Positions 1,343-18,505 of a stretch of 46,781 nucleotides of DNA are shown piece by piece (the first letter of the stretch is position 1; every line of letters starts with the position of its first letter). The DNA is taken from positions 5,799 to 52,579 of the IMG/VR virus record IMGVR_UViG_3300030085_000843, one strand, 5' to 3'. Made by a program: the position numbers and the translations under genes. Origin of the DNA: a virus. Under the pieces are notes generated by a model. It was not told the DNA's origin and did no database searches. It saw only the letters and a list, made by a program, of their open reading frames with translations.

Positions 1343-1628
1343 GATAGATTTACTTACTAGTGAAAAAGTAGATCTTAATCAAAAACTTGACGATTACGCT
1401 GATGAGATAATTAGATTAACTCTTCAAGTTGGTAAGACTCATGAAGACTTTAGAAAACATTCAGAACAAATACCTATGTGGCAAATCAATGTTCTTAAAG
1501 AATGTCAAAGGTTTCTTAAGGTTCTAGAACCTACTAGGAAACAACTCTTAACAGATCTTAATCATGTTATTAAATTTTGTGAGAACAAACCAGTTGAAAA
1601 AACAATTGTGGATGGTAGTCCTGAGTAG
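1284..1628 (+). CDS. 114-aa coiled-coil protein
   Basis: Long helical protein with clear heptads in residues 3-55, then a second helical part containing a tryptophan and basic residues. Possible starts are ATG at 1284 or 1290; I keep the first. It is not a recognised family. Together with the preceding gene it forms a pair of small coiled-coil proteins, which could interact, though this is inference only. Confidence 0.55.
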   Translation: MEMDKKILEKNLQITKLQREIDLLTSEKVDLNQKLDDYADEIIRLTLQVGKTHEDFRKHSEQIPMWQINVLKECQRFLKVLEPTRKQLLTDLNHVIKFCENKPVEKTIVDGSPE

Positions 1629-1679
1629 TCGTAAGACGAAAGGGACCATTCACTTTCTTTTAATTTAAAATGTATTATT

Positions 1680-1856: not shown

Positions 1857-1936
1857 AAAACAAGGAGGTTAGTAGTAACTTAATTTTATTAACACTGCGG
1901 TTATACTTTGGGGTATCTACATCTCCTCCTTGTTTT
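1857..1936 (+). promoter_or_regulatory. closed RNA element / possible terminator
   Basis: AAAACAAGGAGG (1857-1868) pairs perfectly with CCTCCTTGTTTT (1925-1936), enclosing 56 bases. Inside are GTAG (1872-1875) with CTAC (1917-1920), TAAC (1876-1879) with GTTA (1900-1903), and a TTAAT/ATTAA hairpin (1880-1892). The 3' arm runs into a T-rich tail, so it can act as a terminator. The large, orderly interior is unusual for one and suggests a structured leader or RNA. Confidence 0.5.
1881..1896. repeat. 16-bp direct repeat, copy 1
   Basis: TAATTTTATTAACACT occurs here and again at 2241-2256, both times in intergenic DNA and both times preceded by a TTAGTA-like stretch. The repeat contains an ATTAA/TTAAT inverted core, so it could bind a dimeric protein. 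Confidence 0.5.
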
Positions 1937-5680: not shown

Positions 5681-5829
5681 GTACAGTAGGAATATTATTA
5701 ATATCAATATCTGGTGTAATACTAGGTATTTATATTGTTAGTCAGATAGAATGTCATATAGAAAGACGTATATCACGAAAAAACTTAAAGAAAAATTTAG
5801 AAGAGTTTGATAAACAAAGAAAAAAATAA
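5677..5829 (+). CDS. 50-aa small membrane protein
   Basis: Frame from ATG (overlapping the previous TGA stop as ATGA) to TAA. Residues 4-22 are a hydrophobic helix (VGILLISISGVILGIYIVS), followed by a strongly basic cytoplasm-type tail of about 28 residues. The start/stop overlap is good evidence for translational coupling to the DnaA-like gene. A membrane-anchored basic peptide could tether replication complexes or modify the host envelope; nothing decides between these. Confidence 0.6.
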   Translation: MSTVGILLISISGVILGIYIVSQIECHIERRISRKNLKKNLEEFDKQRKK

Positions 5830-5840
5830 CAGATCTGTTT

Positions 5841-5881
5841 AAGAAGGGTGTCCCCGCAGGTGGGGGCATTGCCTTCTTTTT
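5841..5881 (+). terminator. long two-part terminator hairpin
   Basis: AAGAAGG (5841-5847) pairs with CCTTCTT (5872-5878). Inside it, GTGTCCCC (5848-5855) pairs with GGGGGCAT (5862-5869) with G-U pairs, around loop GCAGGT. A T-run follows (5877-5881). It ends the polymerase transcript; the next gene begins 19 bases later. Confidence 0.75.
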
Positions 5882-5899
5882 AACTTAAAATTAAATATT

Positions 5900-12838: not shown

Positions 12839-15584
12839 AACAATTGATAAACCAATGCAAGGTAGCGCCGGCATTGCTAAGAAAATTAACAAAGGCGCTG
12901 AGAAGATGGTGTTTGACATTCTTCAGTCTACACAGTATTCTATGCCTGTTCAGTCTACAGTTAGGGAGTTAGTTACAAATGCGTGTGACTCTCAACGTGA
13001 GAAAGAAGTGGCTATAGAAATACTAAGTGGTAAAAAGAAAGTTGAAGACTATTATATTGAACGTCACGGCGCTCAGTATGAAGACAGTAATTTTGATTCA
13101 AGCTATTACAATATAGCTTCATTAGAACATGTAAAAGATCATATAGATCTGGTATATGAAAAGAATGAAGGTGTAGGTTATTGTGATTTATTTAAAGTTA
13201 CTGACTATGGTGTAGGTATAGGTGGTAGAAGATTGGAAGGTATATTGGAACTAGGTTATTCTACGAAAAGAAATACTAGTGAAAATTTTGGTGCCTTTGG
13301 TCTTGGTGCAAAAGCCGCACTATCAACAGGTGTAGACTTTTATACAATTGAAACTGTATATAATGGTAAAAGGTTTAAATGTAATTGTTATAATTACAAA
13401 ACTGATTTTATTATACCTTCTTTTAATGCGCTAACAGGTCAGCCTAACCCGCATGTTATATTTAGTGATGGTACTAAAGTACATTATGAAGAAGTAGGTG
13501 CTAAGAAAAATGAAACTACTATTTCATTTGGTGTTAAACGACACAATAGAAGAAAGTTTGAAGAAGCTATTGAAGAGCAGCTAATGTATTTTAATAATGT
13601 AAACTTTAAAATTATTGATAATGAAGATGATGGATATGAGAGAAAGGTTAGCTTTCAACCAGAGATTATATACAACTCTGATAATCTTATTATCTCTGAC
13701 TCTTATTATTTTAATAGGCCACATATTGTACTAGTTAAAGATAAAGGTGCAACTACAGGTATTAACTATGGTTATATTGATTTCCGTGAACTAGAAATGG
13801 AACAGATGTATGGTTCTATTGCATTTAAATGTCCTGCTAGACAAGTAATAACTAATGAAGATGGTACAGAAACTGTATTACAAGATGGTGTAGATGTTAC
13901 TCCTTCTCGTGAGAAAGTTATATGGAACGAAGCAACTAAGAAGTATATCAAAGGAGTTATTATGGCAGCTGCACAAGAAGCTAGTGATATGGTTCAAGAA
14001 CAACTTGAAGAAACAGATTTTCTTAAGTGGGTTGACGCTTGTAGATCTGTTATTACTGGTAATAGTACTGAGAATAAAGTCCTAAATAAACTTTCTAAGA
14101 TTATAGATACTAATGATATTAAGCCTAAGTATGGACCTGATCCTAGGATTAAGTATGGTCCTGCAAATAAATTGTTTGAAGGTCTTAGTATTATGCGGCC
14201 TGTAAATTACAATGGTAAAGTAGAGCGTGAGCCTGCTAAAGATTGGAACGGTTTTGATGCTAAGCATTTTTATTCTAAAGAAGGTAAGTGGGATAAGTTT
14301 AAAGATATATATCTTTTATCAGTAGGATTGGAAGAAGAACCTAGTTATGCAAAAAACTATGTTACTTGTTTTGAAGTAGAAGATCTTGATGATAAGTTTA
14401 GTAAAGCTATGAGTAAAGCTATTGGTAATCCTGACGCTATTGCTAAAGTAACAAAAGAGAAGAAAAGAGTTACAGCTAAACGTAATGCTATTCTTAAACT
14501 TATTGAACAATCTGAGTGGTACAAAAACTATGATGATGTAGAAGTGCCTGAAGAGTGGATGGCAGAATACAAAGATCAAATTGCTGAGCAAGAAGAACTT
14601 GCAAAGTTTAGTAATTTGTCAGCTGCAGAAAGGCGTAATATTGAAAAGCGTATGGTTGCTTATACTATTAGGTTTGATAAAAGAAGTGGTAGTTATCATA
14701 CTGTTTGGGATAAGATAGAGCCTAGGACTAAGGATATTATGAATACTACGTACACTACTTATTATTGTACTACAGAAGACGAGAATAAGATGAAAGCAGC
14801 TGCTTGGTTACTTAGATCAATAATGCCTATGCATTGTCACGTATATCCAAAGAGTAATTATGCTAGTTGGGATGATAAGTATACTGAGCCAATATTTTGG
14901 TTTGACGAAGCTCCTGTTAGATTTAAAAAATGGAATAGAGATGAGTATGAAGATTGGGCTAATCCTGTACAAGGTTGGGATGCACCTCAGTTTATACGCG
15001 TTAGTCAGAATAAAGTTAAATTTATTAAACAAAATGCTAACGTTAAACACATCGATGAATTATTTTTACAACTAACAGACAAAGACGGATATACTATGGA
15101 TGATATACTTATTAAATATTATACAGCAGCTAAGCTAGATAAAATAAATGACTTTAAATTTATGCAAGGACTTAGCTGTATACACCCTGAGTTACAAAAA
15201 GATTATTGCGAACTACAAGATCTTAGGGATGACTCTTATAGTGAAATGGATTATAGATTTGTGAGCGATCTAGCGCCAGATATTATTAAGAACATGGATA
15301 AACTATATGAGTTTCAAAAGTTTTGTAGTGAGACTGATGATCTAAGTTTGATTAAACAAAAGTCTAAAGAACTATTTGTTTTATCAGACATTGGAGAAGC
15401 CCGTGCTGCAGATTTAGACATCTTAGCAAAATACGATAATATTGTTGAATTTGCTGAGGAGGTTAAACCCTTACTAGATGAAATTGATTGTCTTAGAGAA
15501 CGCCAGTGCAATATGTCACCTGAGCTAGAGAAAGAAATCAGAGTTTATCTTAGAGCTAAATCACGTGAGGTATGGGACTCGTAA
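12828..15584 (+). CDS. rIIA: rIIA-like GHKL ATPase
   Basis: Large protein with an N-terminal Bergerat-fold ATPase. From the chosen start the N box is E47-LVT-N51-ACD54, the G1 box is D126-YGVG130 and the G2 box is NFGAFGLGAK (153-162). This order and the position near an rIIB-like gene fit phage rIIA proteins, which in T4 protect against prophage-triggered early lysis. Its 918 residues exceed T4 rIIA (about 725). The rest is charged and helical with no recognised domain. I prefer the ATG at 12828, preceded by ctataaaagaaaaaaca, over an upstream ATG at 12792 that lies deep inside the previous gene. Alternatives: a type II topoisomerase or MORC-like relative, but no Toprim or cleavage domain is present. 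Confidence 0.75.
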   Translation: MSIKTIDKPMQGSAGIAKKINKGAEKMVFDILQSTQYSMPVQSTVRELVTNACDSQREKEVAIEILSGKKKVEDYYIERHGAQYEDSNFDSSYYNIASLEHVKDHIDLVYEKNEGVGYCDLFKVTDYGVGIGGRRLEGILELGYSTKRNTSENFGAFGLGAKAALSTGVDFYTIETVYNGKRFKCNCYNYKTDFIIPSFNALTGQPNPHVIFSDGTKVHYEEVGAKKNETTISFGVKRHNRRKFEEAIEEQLMYFNNVNFKIIDNEDDGYERKVSFQPEIIYNSDNLIISDSYYFNRPHIVLVKDKGATTGINYGYIDFRELEMEQMYGSIAFKCPARQVITNEDGTETVLQDGVDVTPSREKVIWNEATKKYIKGVIMAAAQEASDMVQEQLEETDFLKWVDACRSVITGNSTENKVLNKLSKIIDTNDIKPKYGPDPRIKYGPANKLFEGLSIMRPVNYNGKVEREPAKDWNGFDAKHFYSKEGKWDKFKDIYLLSVGLEEEPSYAKNYVTCFEVEDLDDKFSKAMSKAIGNPDAIAKVTKEKKRVTAKRNAILKLIEQSEWYKNYDDVEVPEEWMAEYKDQIAEQEELAKFSNLSAAERRNIEKRMVAYTIRFDKRSGSYHTVWDKIEPRTKDIMNTTYTTYYCTTEDENKMKAAAWLLRSIMPMHCHVYPKSNYASWDDKYTEPIFWFDEAPVRFKKWNRDEYEDWANPVQGWDAPQFIRVSQNKVKFIKQNANVKHIDELFLQLTDKDGYTMDDILIKYYTAAKLDKINDFKFMQGLSCIHPELQKDYCELQDLRDDSYSEMDYRFVSDLAPDIIKNMDKLYEFQKFCSETDDLSLIKQKSKELFVLSDIGEARAADLDILAKYDNIVEFAEEVKPLLDEIDCLRERQCNMSPELEKEIRVYLRAKSREVWDS

Positions 15585-16432
15585 GTAAGGATACTAGGAG
15601 GACGTTTAAGATACGTCCTTCTGGTAGATCTACGGACTTTATATCTCCTAGTTTTGGATATGGTTGTTTGTATAATTGTTCATACTGTTATATGAAACGT
15701 CATAAACCTGATGGTCTGTCTATTGCTGTAAATACAGGTGATATACTAACAGAAGTTAATAATCATGCATACTTTACACCGATAGATAAACCTAATCAAA
15801 CACATGCAGAGTATACTACTTACGACATTAGTTGTAATGAAGACTTTGCTTTGCATGCAAAACACCACCAGTGGGAAAAGATCTTTGAGTTTTTCAGAGA
15901 TCATCCCATTGCGATGGGTAGTTTTGCGACTAAATATGTTAACAACAATCTTTTAACATTTAACCCGCAAGGTAAGATACGTATTAGATTTAGTCTTATG
16001 CCACAACATAAGTCAGATTTACATGAGCCACATACATCTAAGATTATAGATAGAATAAAAGCTATTAATAAATTTGTAGATGCAGGCTATGATGTACATG
16101 TAAACTACAGTCCTATCATAGTATATGATGGTTGGCTAGAAGATTATGAATACCTATTTACTTTGTTAAATAAACATGTAAGTTATAAAGATAAAGTGTT
16201 AGCAGAATGTATATTTTTAACACACAATTTTAAAAAACATATTGTAAATTTGCAGAAACACCCTGATACTGAGGTAGATCTGTGGGTGCTTGATATGCAA
16301 GAGGCTAAGAAGTCACAATATGGTGGGGAAAATGTACGATATAAACTAGAACTAAAATCAAAGTTTATAGATCAATTTAAATTATTACACAATTCGATAG
16401 TACCTTGGAATAAAATAAGGTATATTTTTTAA
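15572..16432 (+). CDS. spore photoproduct lyase-like radical SAM protein
   Basis: C32-LYN-C36-SY-C39 matches the CX3CX2C iron-sulfur motif of radical SAM enzymes, and the surrounding layout (FGYGCLYNCSYCYM; later KIRIRFSLMPQ) resembles spore photoproduct lyase. A Cys in DISCNED (C88) falls where the hydrogen-donor Cys of the B. subtilis enzyme (C141) would be expected. Those enzymes split thymine dimers without light, so a DNA-photodamage repair role is plausible; the phage protein may instead have a new substrate. At 286 residues it is somewhat shorter than bacterial SplB (about 340). The start overlaps the rIIA-like gene by 13 bases. It is placed between the rIIA- and rIIB-like genes. Confidence 0.7.
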   Translation: MGLVSKDTRRTFKIRPSGRSTDFISPSFGYGCLYNCSYCYMKRHKPDGLSIAVNTGDILTEVNNHAYFTPIDKPNQTHAEYTTYDISCNEDFALHAKHHQWEKIFEFFRDHPIAMGSFATKYVNNNLLTFNPQGKIRIRFSLMPQHKSDLHEPHTSKIIDRIKAINKFVDAGYDVHVNYSPIIVYDGWLEDYEYLFTLLNKHVSYKDKVLAECIFLTHNFKKHIVNLQKHPDTEVDLWVLDMQEAKKSQYGGENVRYKLELKSKFIDQFKLLHNSIVPWNKIRYIF

Positions 16433-16450: not shown

Positions 16451-17620
16451 ATGATTACAATTAATGTTATTGATGACAAAATCTGTGGATCTTATGGTGA
16501 TAAACCATTCACAGTTGAGTATAGTAAAGAACTATACGATAGAATGCAACAGCTTAGCCACAAGGCTCAAGGTGTTAGTACAGTAGAAGAATACAATGAA
16601 GTTATGGAGGAGTTTGCTCCTTTATGTGTTGTAGATTATACTAAAACAATTGAAACGCAATGTGAATACATTCATGTTAACAAAGGAACAGGAGAGTTCT
16701 TTCTTAAACACAATGGTGTAGTATCTAGTATACCTATGCCACAAGCGCTTGTAGATAGAATCTTTGAGTCTATAGATAAAGAAGTAGACTTTATGCCTTT
16801 GGTAAAAATGTGGACACGTTGGTTAAGAAACCCGATCTTGTGGAGAAAGATGAAGCAAGGACACGGACAAGATTTCTGTAATAGATTCTTTAACTTTGTT
16901 AACATGCAGTATGTGCATCCAAAACACAAAGAAGATCTTATGGAAAATCATGGATTGACTGAAGAAGCAGCTGAGAAAAGAGCTACAATGTACCAAATGA
17001 AAATCACCCAAGAGGGATTACTAAATGGTTACAAAGTCTCTCAAGAAGTTCTGCATAAGTTTGATCCAGAAACTGGTGAACAAGTTGATCGTTACAAAAG
17101 AACGTTTAACGTAGACACCGGTGAGATAGAAGGCGATGGATTACCAGAGCATGTAGAAGACAGACTATTTGAACCAGCTGTTATGGGTTCAAGTGGTGAT
17201 GCATTTTATTGTGAAGGGCCTAATGGCTATGCTAATCCAGGACATTTTATCAAAGTTGGATGTACACATAGACTAAAAGATTGGAGTCAAGTTAATGTTA
17301 ATGATACAATATCATGCGTTAAGGGACTTCATGTTGGTGGTCTTAAGTATATTGCCTACTACAGTGGTGAGATACACAACATATTTGTAGACCCGATGCA
17401 TATTGGTGCTGTACCATGTGATGTAGACGGTGCTATTAGATGTAAGCAATATTTTGTACATTCGTCACTAGCTGGAGTAAACGGCTCTATTTACCACAGT
17501 TCTACTTACGCTGCTATGACAGATGCAGAGTGGGATGAGATGCGTAAAGCGGCTGTTGAAGAGAAAACAGAGTGTAAAGTACAATGTGACAAGGAAGTTG
17601 CGGAGATTAATGCTCTGTAG
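16451..17620 (+). CDS. rIIB: rIIB-like protein
   Basis: A 389-residue protein whose C-terminal part contains CVKGLHVGGLKYIAYY (about 289-304), a pattern I associate with phage rIIB-like proteins, followed by a second conserved-looking block (DPMHIGAVPCD). The N-terminal half is mixed helical with no known domain. The rIIA-like gene lies two genes upstream, the pairing seen in T4 and many other phages, where both proteins are needed for one phenotype (rapid lysis/exclusion). A/T-only leader (actaattaaaccaaaaatt). The C-terminal tail is acidic with Cys residues. Function in this phage is inferred from family. Confidence 0.65.
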   Translation: MITINVIDDKICGSYGDKPFTVEYSKELYDRMQQLSHKAQGVSTVEEYNEVMEEFAPLCVVDYTKTIETQCEYIHVNKGTGEFFLKHNGVVSSIPMPQALVDRIFESIDKEVDFMPLVKMWTRWLRNPILWRKMKQGHGQDFCNRFFNFVNMQYVHPKHKEDLMENHGLTEEAAEKRATMYQMKITQEGLLNGYKVSQEVLHKFDPETGEQVDRYKRTFNVDTGEIEGDGLPEHVEDRLFEPAVMGSSGDAFYCEGPNGYANPGHFIKVGCTHRLKDWSQVNVNDTISCVKGLHVGGLKYIAYYSGEIHNIFVDPMHIGAVPCDVDGAIRCKQYFVHSSLAGVNGSIYHSSTYAAMTDAEWDEMRKAAVEEKTECKVQCDKEVAEINAL

Positions 17621-17640: not shown

Positions 17641-17709
17641 TATAAGGGGGTTACGCGTTGTTAACTAAAGTGTGAATAACCTAGAACGCATCACAAGGCC
17701 CCCTTTATA
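17641..17709 (+). promoter_or_regulatory. pseudoknot-like closed RNA element
   Basis: TATAAGGGGG (17641-17650) pairs with CCCCCTTTATA (17699-17709, one T bulged). Inside, GCGTT (17655-17659) pairs with AACGC (17685-17689) and GTTA (17660-17663) with TAAC (17677-17680), with CTAG bulged. The hairpin loop contains TGTGA (17671-17675), complementary to TCACA (17691-17695) just outside the inner stem, giving an H-type pseudoknot. It ends 20 bases before the ATG of the exonuclease gene. It could be a riboregulator, a processing or stability element, or a terminator variant; there is no T-tract beyond CCCCCTTTATA. Confidence 0.5.
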
Positions 17710-17728: not shown

Positions 17729-18505
17729 ATGAAAAAGATAGCATTAATAGATGCAGATAGTCTCCTATACTATGAAATGGGAGCAAATACATTAGAAGAG
17801 GCAATGGTTGGCCTCGACGCTAGAATACGTACAATACTAGAAGAAACAGAAGCTGATGAGTACATGGGGTTTCTAACACTAGGTAAATGTTTTAGATACA
17901 AAGTAGCAGAAACTAGAAAGTACAAAGGTAATAGAAAGGGTGCACAAAAACCACCTATATTCTATGCATTGAAAGCGTATTTACAACAAGAACCTTATCA
18001 TTTTTATTCTGTACCAGGATTAGAAGCTGACGATTGTGTAGCAATATATGCCAATACAGTTAATGATGATGGTAACATGGCTATTATTTGTAGTCCTGAT
18101 AAAGATGTACTAAAACAAGTACCAGGTAAACATTTTAATTATCAAAAAGTAGAATGGATAAATACAACACCGGATGAAGCTGAAGCATTTATGTGGAAGC
18201 AGACTCTTATGGGTGATCCAACTGATGGCATACCAGGTATACCAGGGTTGGGACCAAAAACAGCTGATAAGTTGATAGATGAAATGCCTGAGTTACTAGA
18301 TTATTCAAGTATAGTTGTAGAAAAATATATTGAAAAATTTGGAATTAAACAAGGAATTTGTAAATTTGCAGAGACATTCAATCTTGTTTACTTACTACGA
18401 CACCCTGAAGAGGTACTACTTTACACCGGATCTGCGCTGCCTGAGCTTAAACTAAATCAATGTTTAACTCTAAATAGTTTAGAAAATGACTCCAGTGAAG
18501 ATTAA
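17729..18505 (+). CDS. FEN-type 5'-3' exonuclease
   Basis: Structure-specific 5' nuclease removing primers and flaps (T4 RNase H / Pol I 5' nuclease family). Metal-binding acidic residues are visible: D8 and D10 (ALIDADSLL), E99-A-D101-D102 (GLEADDC), D124 and D126 (SPDKD), D163 and D166 (MGDPTDG). They are followed by the helix-hairpin-helix IPGIPGLGPKTADKL (168-182). 258 residues is normal. I use the ATG at 17729, preceded by ttaaaatttttatt, rather than an in-frame GTG at 17672, because MKKIALIDAD is the expected N-terminus and the upstream part codes through the structured RNA element. It complements the polymerase at 3321, which lacks this domain. Confidence 0.9.
   Translation: MKKIALIDADSLLYYEMGANTLEEAMVGLDARIRTILEETEADEYMGFLTLGKCFRYKVAETRKYKGNRKGAQKPPIFYALKAYLQQEPYHFYSVPGLEADDCVAIYANTVNDDGNMAIICSPDKDVLKQVPGKHFNYQKVEWINTTPDEAEAFMWKQTLMGDPTDGIPGIPGLGPKTADKLIDEMPELLDYSSIVVEKYIEKFGIKQGICKFAETFNLVYLLRHPEEVLLYTGSALPELKLNQCLTLNSLENDSSED
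18338..18368 (+). promoter_or_regulatory. possible internal promoter in exonuclease gene
   Basis: TTTG (18338-18341), 19 bases, TAAATTTG (18361-18368) followed by C: an exact -33/-7 consensus and spacing inside coding DNA, upstream of the hypothetical and ung genes. TAnnTTTG alone is common by chance in this AT-rich DNA, so only the paired boxes make it worth listing. Confidence 0.3.

Follow-up and report, generated by a model that had tools for sequence, protein, structure and literature searches.

A conserved, exchangeable pseudoknot module in terminator-like hairpins at phage operon junctions

We found that the element at positions 17641-17709 of the window (the whole stretch of 46,781 nucleotides analysed here, which lies in a viral record of 52.6 kb from a marine phage) belongs to a real RNA module, which was previously undescribed and is without an Rfam family. 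We denote it class A. Comparison among phages, unrelated ones included, shows a shared fold, its conservation, its exchange between genomic sites and its presence at one copy per phage. Judged by its homologues, class A is almost certainly a conserved pseudoknot, and its setting is probably a terminator or transcript 3' end. Taken as a whole, the best explanation, which we put forward tentatively, is that class A may be a terminator-embedded 3'-UTR RNA module, one of a swapped set, that acts in trans via protein binding.

In the window, the element lies between a gene encoding an RIIB-like protein and a 5'-3' exonuclease gene, and its end is 19 bases from the exonuclease ATG (17729) (Table 1). 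All the complementary words named by the initial annotation were located at their named positions, and the ordered RNA that it described, a closing stem with an H-type pseudoknot, was confirmed in place and is kept in homologues. In the closing stem, GGGGG (17646-17650) pairs with CCCCC (17699-17703), and the pairing continues outward between TATAA (17641-17645) and TTATA (17705-17709). The stem is 10-12 bp long, is G+C-capped and encloses P1. The loop of P1 pairs with bases outside P1, as in an H-type pseudoknot, and both helices carry two-sided changes. A further inner pairing in the same annotation, between GTTA (17660-17663) and TAAC (17677-17680), did not hold up. The complementarity is present in the window, its addition to the fold brought no energy gain, and the pairing is impossible in six homologous loci (L156, L165, L166, L168, L104, and L252), where the first strand is a conserved unpaired motif. 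The opening six bases of loop 1 (17660-17665 in the window and the same place in L156 and L165) are differing palindromes (GTTAAC, GCTAGC, and ACTAGT), which might form a mini-hairpin with a two-base loop or pair between two RNA copies. Between rIIA and rIIB, the window also encodes a spore photoproduct lyase-like radical-SAM protein with a CxxxCxxC motif (15572-16432, + strand; PF20903, E 2e-29).

Table 1 Features of the class A element, its flanking genes, and the structured insert classes. Positions are those of the window.
Feature	Position	Strand	Sequence or remark
Upstream gene, RIIB-like	16451-17620	+	PHROG 609, E 3.6e-8
Closing stem, 5' arm	17641-17650	+	TATAAGGGGG
Closing stem, alternative reading	12 pairs from 17639	+	includes G-U wobbles
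P1, 5' strand	17655-17659	+	GCGTT; GTTGC with GCAAC in L252/L269
Loop 1	17660-17670	+	GTTAACTAAAG; conserved unpaired motif, YUAR then A-rich
P2 (pseudoknot), 5' strand	17671-17675	+	TGTGA
Loop 2	17676-17684	+	ATAACCTAG; AUAA right after P2 common to all members
P1, 3' strand	17685-17689	+	AACGC
P1-P2 junction	17690-17690	+	single base, A here; A or T across all members
P2 (pseudoknot), 3' strand	17691-17695	+	TCACA
Closing stem, 3' arm	17699-17709	+	CCCCCTTTATA, then TCTACTTAAAATTTTTATT
Downstream gene, 5'-3' exonuclease	17729-18505	+	Pfam PF02739; PHROG 107, E 4.9e-54
Class B structured RNA, same phage	1857-1936	+	same design as class A, different RNA
Insert class B			core GCGGTTATACTTTG
Insert class C			tRNA-like; T-arm GGTTTGAACCC
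Insert class D			L102/L103/L108
Insert class E			L105/L110

From the window sequence alone, the case for the pseudoknot is moderate. The nested fold of the element gave z = -1.64. Standard folding is unable to represent a pseudoknot and favours a different, nested form. Scored separately, both helix sets were favourable (closing stem with P1, -12.7 kcal/mol; closing stem with P2, -11.5 kcal/mol). By chance, an H-type pseudoknot of 5+5 bp enclosed by a stem of 8 bp or more is uncommon, though it can arise: it was counted in 2 of 4000 dinucleotide shuffles and, along the contig, in 7 of 4062 segments of the same size, the element itself being among these seven. The case becomes solid because homologues keep P1, P2, and the closing stem through two-sided changes.

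To collect homologues, about 160 viral loci were gathered via proteins related to the RIIB-like protein and to UDG. One of these loci (L156) and another found by pattern (L165) have the class A core at the same junction as the window. A pattern scan returned two loci from a different phage group (L166 and L168), where the core is located before a 62-aa ORF. L104, from a hairpin survey, shares the loop motif and has GTCAG/CTGAT instead of TGTGA/TCACA as P2. Three other loci (L189, L192, and L195) have the core in common with L104; of these, L189 has the same P2 and a closing stem altered on both sides. A further scan identified L252 and L269, in which P1 is GTTGC/GCAAC, P2 is TTAGA/TCTAA (7 bp when the flanking G and C are counted), and the closing stem is GTTGGCTAG/CTAGCCAAC. 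The search key for these two was GTTAACTAA, and there the helices, not the loop motif, count as independent.

Because MAFFT misaligns L104 and L252, the final alignment was built by structure and verified letter for letter. Its nine distinct rows come from four contexts in phages and include four close pairs (L156/L165, L166/L168, L104/L189, and L252/L269), which leaves about 4-5 independent lineages. Every P1 and P2 cell pairs, with no broken pair. Two-sided changes were found at pairs 2-5 of both P1 (CG/TA, GC/TA, TA/GC, and TA/CG) and P2 (GC/TA, TA/CG/AT, GC/AT, and AT/GC), so that the compensatory changes sought by the initial annotation in the GCGTT/AACGC and TGTGA/TCACA arms are present in both. 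The closing stem has also been rewritten on both strands in other phages, with pairing kept. Constant across members are the YUAR and A-rich bases of loop 1, an unpaired motif of the UUAACUAA or CUAG..AAAA type, and the AUAA after P2.

With a structure descriptor run over 2.76 Mb of loci, true members scored 22, 22, 21, 21, and 21, and the best score in three shuffled sets was 19. The L104 type, whose helices are shorter, falls inside the shuffled range, and its support comes from covariation and the motif in common. Among 37 stretches containing GTTAACTAAGG..ATAAA, six are able to fold, of which L252 and L269 were new and the other four were known before; the descriptor detected no member among the remaining ones. 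The pattern AAAGTGTGAATAAN{6,16}ATCAC gave no new folding member. Two hits of the GCGTTNCTAG pattern scan, L196 and L197, were rejected as false positives in coding sequence. No convincing match emerged when the element was compared by BLAST with annotated phages, or the L252 form with phages and plasmids. Two class A patterns, limited to marine-type sequence, had no match in the GTDB genome collection, and a host origin of class A draws no support from that scan.

In Rfam 15, no family reached its gathering threshold in the window, and at a permissive E-value the element matched mir-5 only (16.2 bits vs 75). Seven loci had no family match, and L269 had only weak sub-threshold matches. The literature covered, mostly outside preprints and subscription journals, contains no description of the module or of exchangeable structured terminator loops in these phages.

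We then compared the junction between the RIIB-like and exonuclease genes in 59 distinct forms. Of these, 33 have a plain hairpin whose loop is at most 14, 16 have a stem whose loop is at least 20 by an automatic rule, and 5 have no hairpin; five more large-loop stems, A+T-closed or imperfect (L049, L145, L152, L153, and L155), were missed by the rule and classed by eye. The large inserts are of several unrelated sequence classes, which we label A to E, plus singletons. A second junction follows an endonuclease-like ORF and lies upstream of rIIA. It can be occupied by plain terminators (L103/L108/L144/L143/L150), class A (L104, behind the endonuclease-like gene), class B (L086/L181/L182), an E-like insert (L111), or other inserts (L087, L101/L102/L096/L114, and L208). 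Classes A, B, and E are each present at both junctions, and at least eight structured inserts are interchangeable with plain hairpins over the two. The plain-loop terminators of L090, L097, L127, and L103 resemble class A in position, kind of G/C stem, and distance to the ATG, but their loops of 3-14 nt hold no module.

The class A element has the G+C-rich stem of an intrinsic terminator. It is followed by TTTATATC in the window, without a clean U-run, and by TTCCTTTTTT in L104. The terminator scan, limited to loops of 3-8 and blind to the element, makes no call at the window stem. In L252 and L269, a strong intrinsic terminator comes directly after class A, about 10 bases on, with no gene close behind. 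Across members, it is tied to no particular preceding gene. L252 and L269 also have many dispersed TTTTTAGATAGAAAAGACAAGCAAGC repeats in intergenic DNA (L286:1600-1900).

The window's phage carries class B in addition to the class A element at the RIIB-exonuclease junction. The class B closing stem in the window is AAAACAAGGAGG/CCTCCTTGTTTT, followed by TATTT, and its core comprises TAAC..GCGGTTATACTTTG and GTAG/CTAC. Relatives of class B occupy differing gene junctions in nine or more other phage records. Its closing stem has 28 two-sided covariation cells vs 6.6 in shuffles and is 94.7% paired vs at most 62% when slid. Among 50 records searched, which may be fragments, class A had one strong match per record in 5 and class B one match per record in 10; the L104/L252-type loop pattern had a single match each in 7 of 36 records. 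A single copy per phage could also be explained by deletion of direct repeats.

Other structured inserts were observed in these phages. Those of L098 (6171-6257) and L161 (6188-6281) are tRNA-like and are located in the same terminator-like stem; they have the T-arm GGTTTGAACCC and a 10-nt loop in the anticodon-loop position, with no ARAGORN call and no Rfam match. In class D (L102:6194-6285, L103, and L108), the RIIB-exonuclease stem holds GACGAACGGCGTTTTGCCA... in a loop of 69-70 nt. A recurrent hairpin insert, GCTATGGACSCATAGC..TCTTACGAGGATAAAG, occurs in other phages (L048:3003-3070, L052:4585-4648, and L054:4338-4491), and a conserved intergenic hairpin, GGATAC..CACATAGGTAGGTG..GGTGAATTAACAC..GTATCC, in G005 (around 5743-5884) and G009 (14919-14972). 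The window itself has a hairpin at 1608-1653 (+ strand), GTGGATGGT..ACCATTCAC, which overlaps an ORF end and whose tip, AGTA-GTC-GTAA-GAC-GAA, matches in sequence a bulged-G (loop E) motif beneath a GNRA tetraloop.

These comparisons suggest the following mechanism. The class A module consists of the closing stem, P1, the H-type P2, the one-base junction, and two conserved unpaired segments that hold it together. Its position at the top of a terminator-like hairpin implies that the rIIB transcript would carry it at the 3' end and that any read-through RNA would contain it too. It is one of several unrelated structured modules that are carried in the loops of the same terminator-like hairpins in related phages and exchanged between operon junctions. 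The product may be a stable small RNA, with the terminator-like stem both setting its end and protecting it, that acts in trans when its fixed pseudoknot core binds a putative protein. For this trans action, a possibility to be held with some reserve, copy number and site exchange are the two pointers. We place a trans-acting 3'-UTR small RNA first, if cautiously, because it would account for the fixed core under changing helices, the indifference to neighbouring genes with the preference for transcript ends, and the one copy per phage.

Type III antitoxin RNAs (ToxI, CptI, and TenpI) are short H-type pseudoknots able to neutralise a defence protein, and phage TE carries a mimic of such an antitoxin, pseudo-ToxI (PMC5086642). 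Class A resembles them as a short H-type pseudoknot with A-rich loops near a terminator. In type III systems, tandem repeats are followed by a terminator and a toxin gene, whereas class A is a single unit with no adjacent toxin gene. We found one copy per record instead of tandem pseudoknot repeats, and the gene just downstream in the window encodes a 5'-3' FEN-like exonuclease and not a ToxN-like endoribonuclease.

The strongest of the alternatives, although an unlikely one, is a conditional terminator, in which the pseudoknot is a sensor built into the stem, and the stem would be stabilised or opened on binding of a ligand or protein, setting read-through into the exonuclease gene. The architecture has a precedent in the HMP-PP (thiS) riboswitch, a real sensor whose pseudoknot-forming aptamer is embedded in the stem of an intrinsic terminator (PMC6478431). 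As there, class A is a small conserved pseudoknot domain almost wholly in a stem, here a terminator-like one, and its loop is conserved where drift would be expected, with nucleotides kept that should not matter in a terminator hairpin; its sites are operon junctions. The HMP-PP riboswitch is bacterial and associated with thiamin genes, whereas class A differs in sequence and topology, is found in phages without a consistent gene, and trades places with plain hairpins and other folds. The window has an exonuclease gene downstream and no Rfam match, and not the thiS consensus with a thiamin gene. A conditional terminator fits the fixed core under changing helices and only partly fits the indifference to neighbours and the preference for transcript ends. 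Members differ in neighbouring genes, and the L252/L269 module precedes its own separate strong terminator and not a gene. The weak U-run in L166 and L168 also speaks against it.

We consider it similarly improbable that class A is passive armour, a knot that blocks 3'-5' exoribonucleases at the rIIB transcript end or aids termination. Several unrelated folds would then occur at one site because any compact fold would serve. Class A is always found at junctions or transcript ends and is exchangeable with plain hairpins and unrelated inserts, and the L252/L269 copy precedes a terminator, a place where an additional barrier would be useful. However, armour fails because the core is fixed while the helices change: unpaired bases are kept beyond its needs. 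Most relatives, moreover, manage with plain terminators, and a general device is not expected at one copy per phage.

It is quite improbable that class A is a site of self-cleavage or nuclease processing that splits the rIIB and exonuclease messages. Small ribozymes such as pistol are typically small pseudoknots with a few fixed unpaired bases, and the tRNA-like insert at the same site in L098 and L161 would be a natural processing signal. However, no Rfam ribozyme family matched, and the closing stem would keep both products joined.

Still less probable is translational control of the exonuclease from its leader, which the initial annotation had proposed. The ATG is close to the element, the exonuclease follows it in L156 and L165 too, and the autoregulatory mRNA pseudoknot of T4 gene 32 is likewise a phage knot in the gap preceding a DNA-metabolism gene (PMC535899, PMC3014915). 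The T4 knot controls its own gene, whereas class A is located in a terminator-like stem and is not bound to the exonuclease gene. Leader control fails because neighbours vary and transcript ends are preferred. The element is absent in most of the 59 distinct relatives, with 33 having only a plain hairpin in the exonuclease gap, about 20 other structured inserts and 5 none, and the same pseudoknot has other neighbours in L166/L168, L104, and L252/L269. Chance complementarity within an A+T-rich terminator loop, which would suit the modest single-sequence statistics, is hardly credible given the two-sided changes across phages in P1, P2, and the closing stem and the matches of the class A model in other records, with E-values between 1e-13 and 1e-16 (these same sequences went into building the model).

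The results add a covariation-supported RNA family new to Rfam and reveal a testable pattern, in which plain terminators at fixed operon junctions are swapped for elaborate folds. One speculative, and rather unlikely, extension is that the junctions are hot spots of exchangeable cargo RNAs in terminator stems (class A, class B, a tRNA-like fold, and other unrelated small folds), at most one of each per phage, that bind and neutralise proteins of the host, for example those of RNA-dependent or RNA-targeting defence. If true, this would be an RNA counterpart of the anti-defence gene islands of phages. If class A acts in trans, terminator loops would be a place to seek regulatory or counter-defence RNAs of phages, which searches for protein genes miss. 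If it acts in cis, a set of phage elements would join the one riboswitch class as examples of terminator-embedded sensing.
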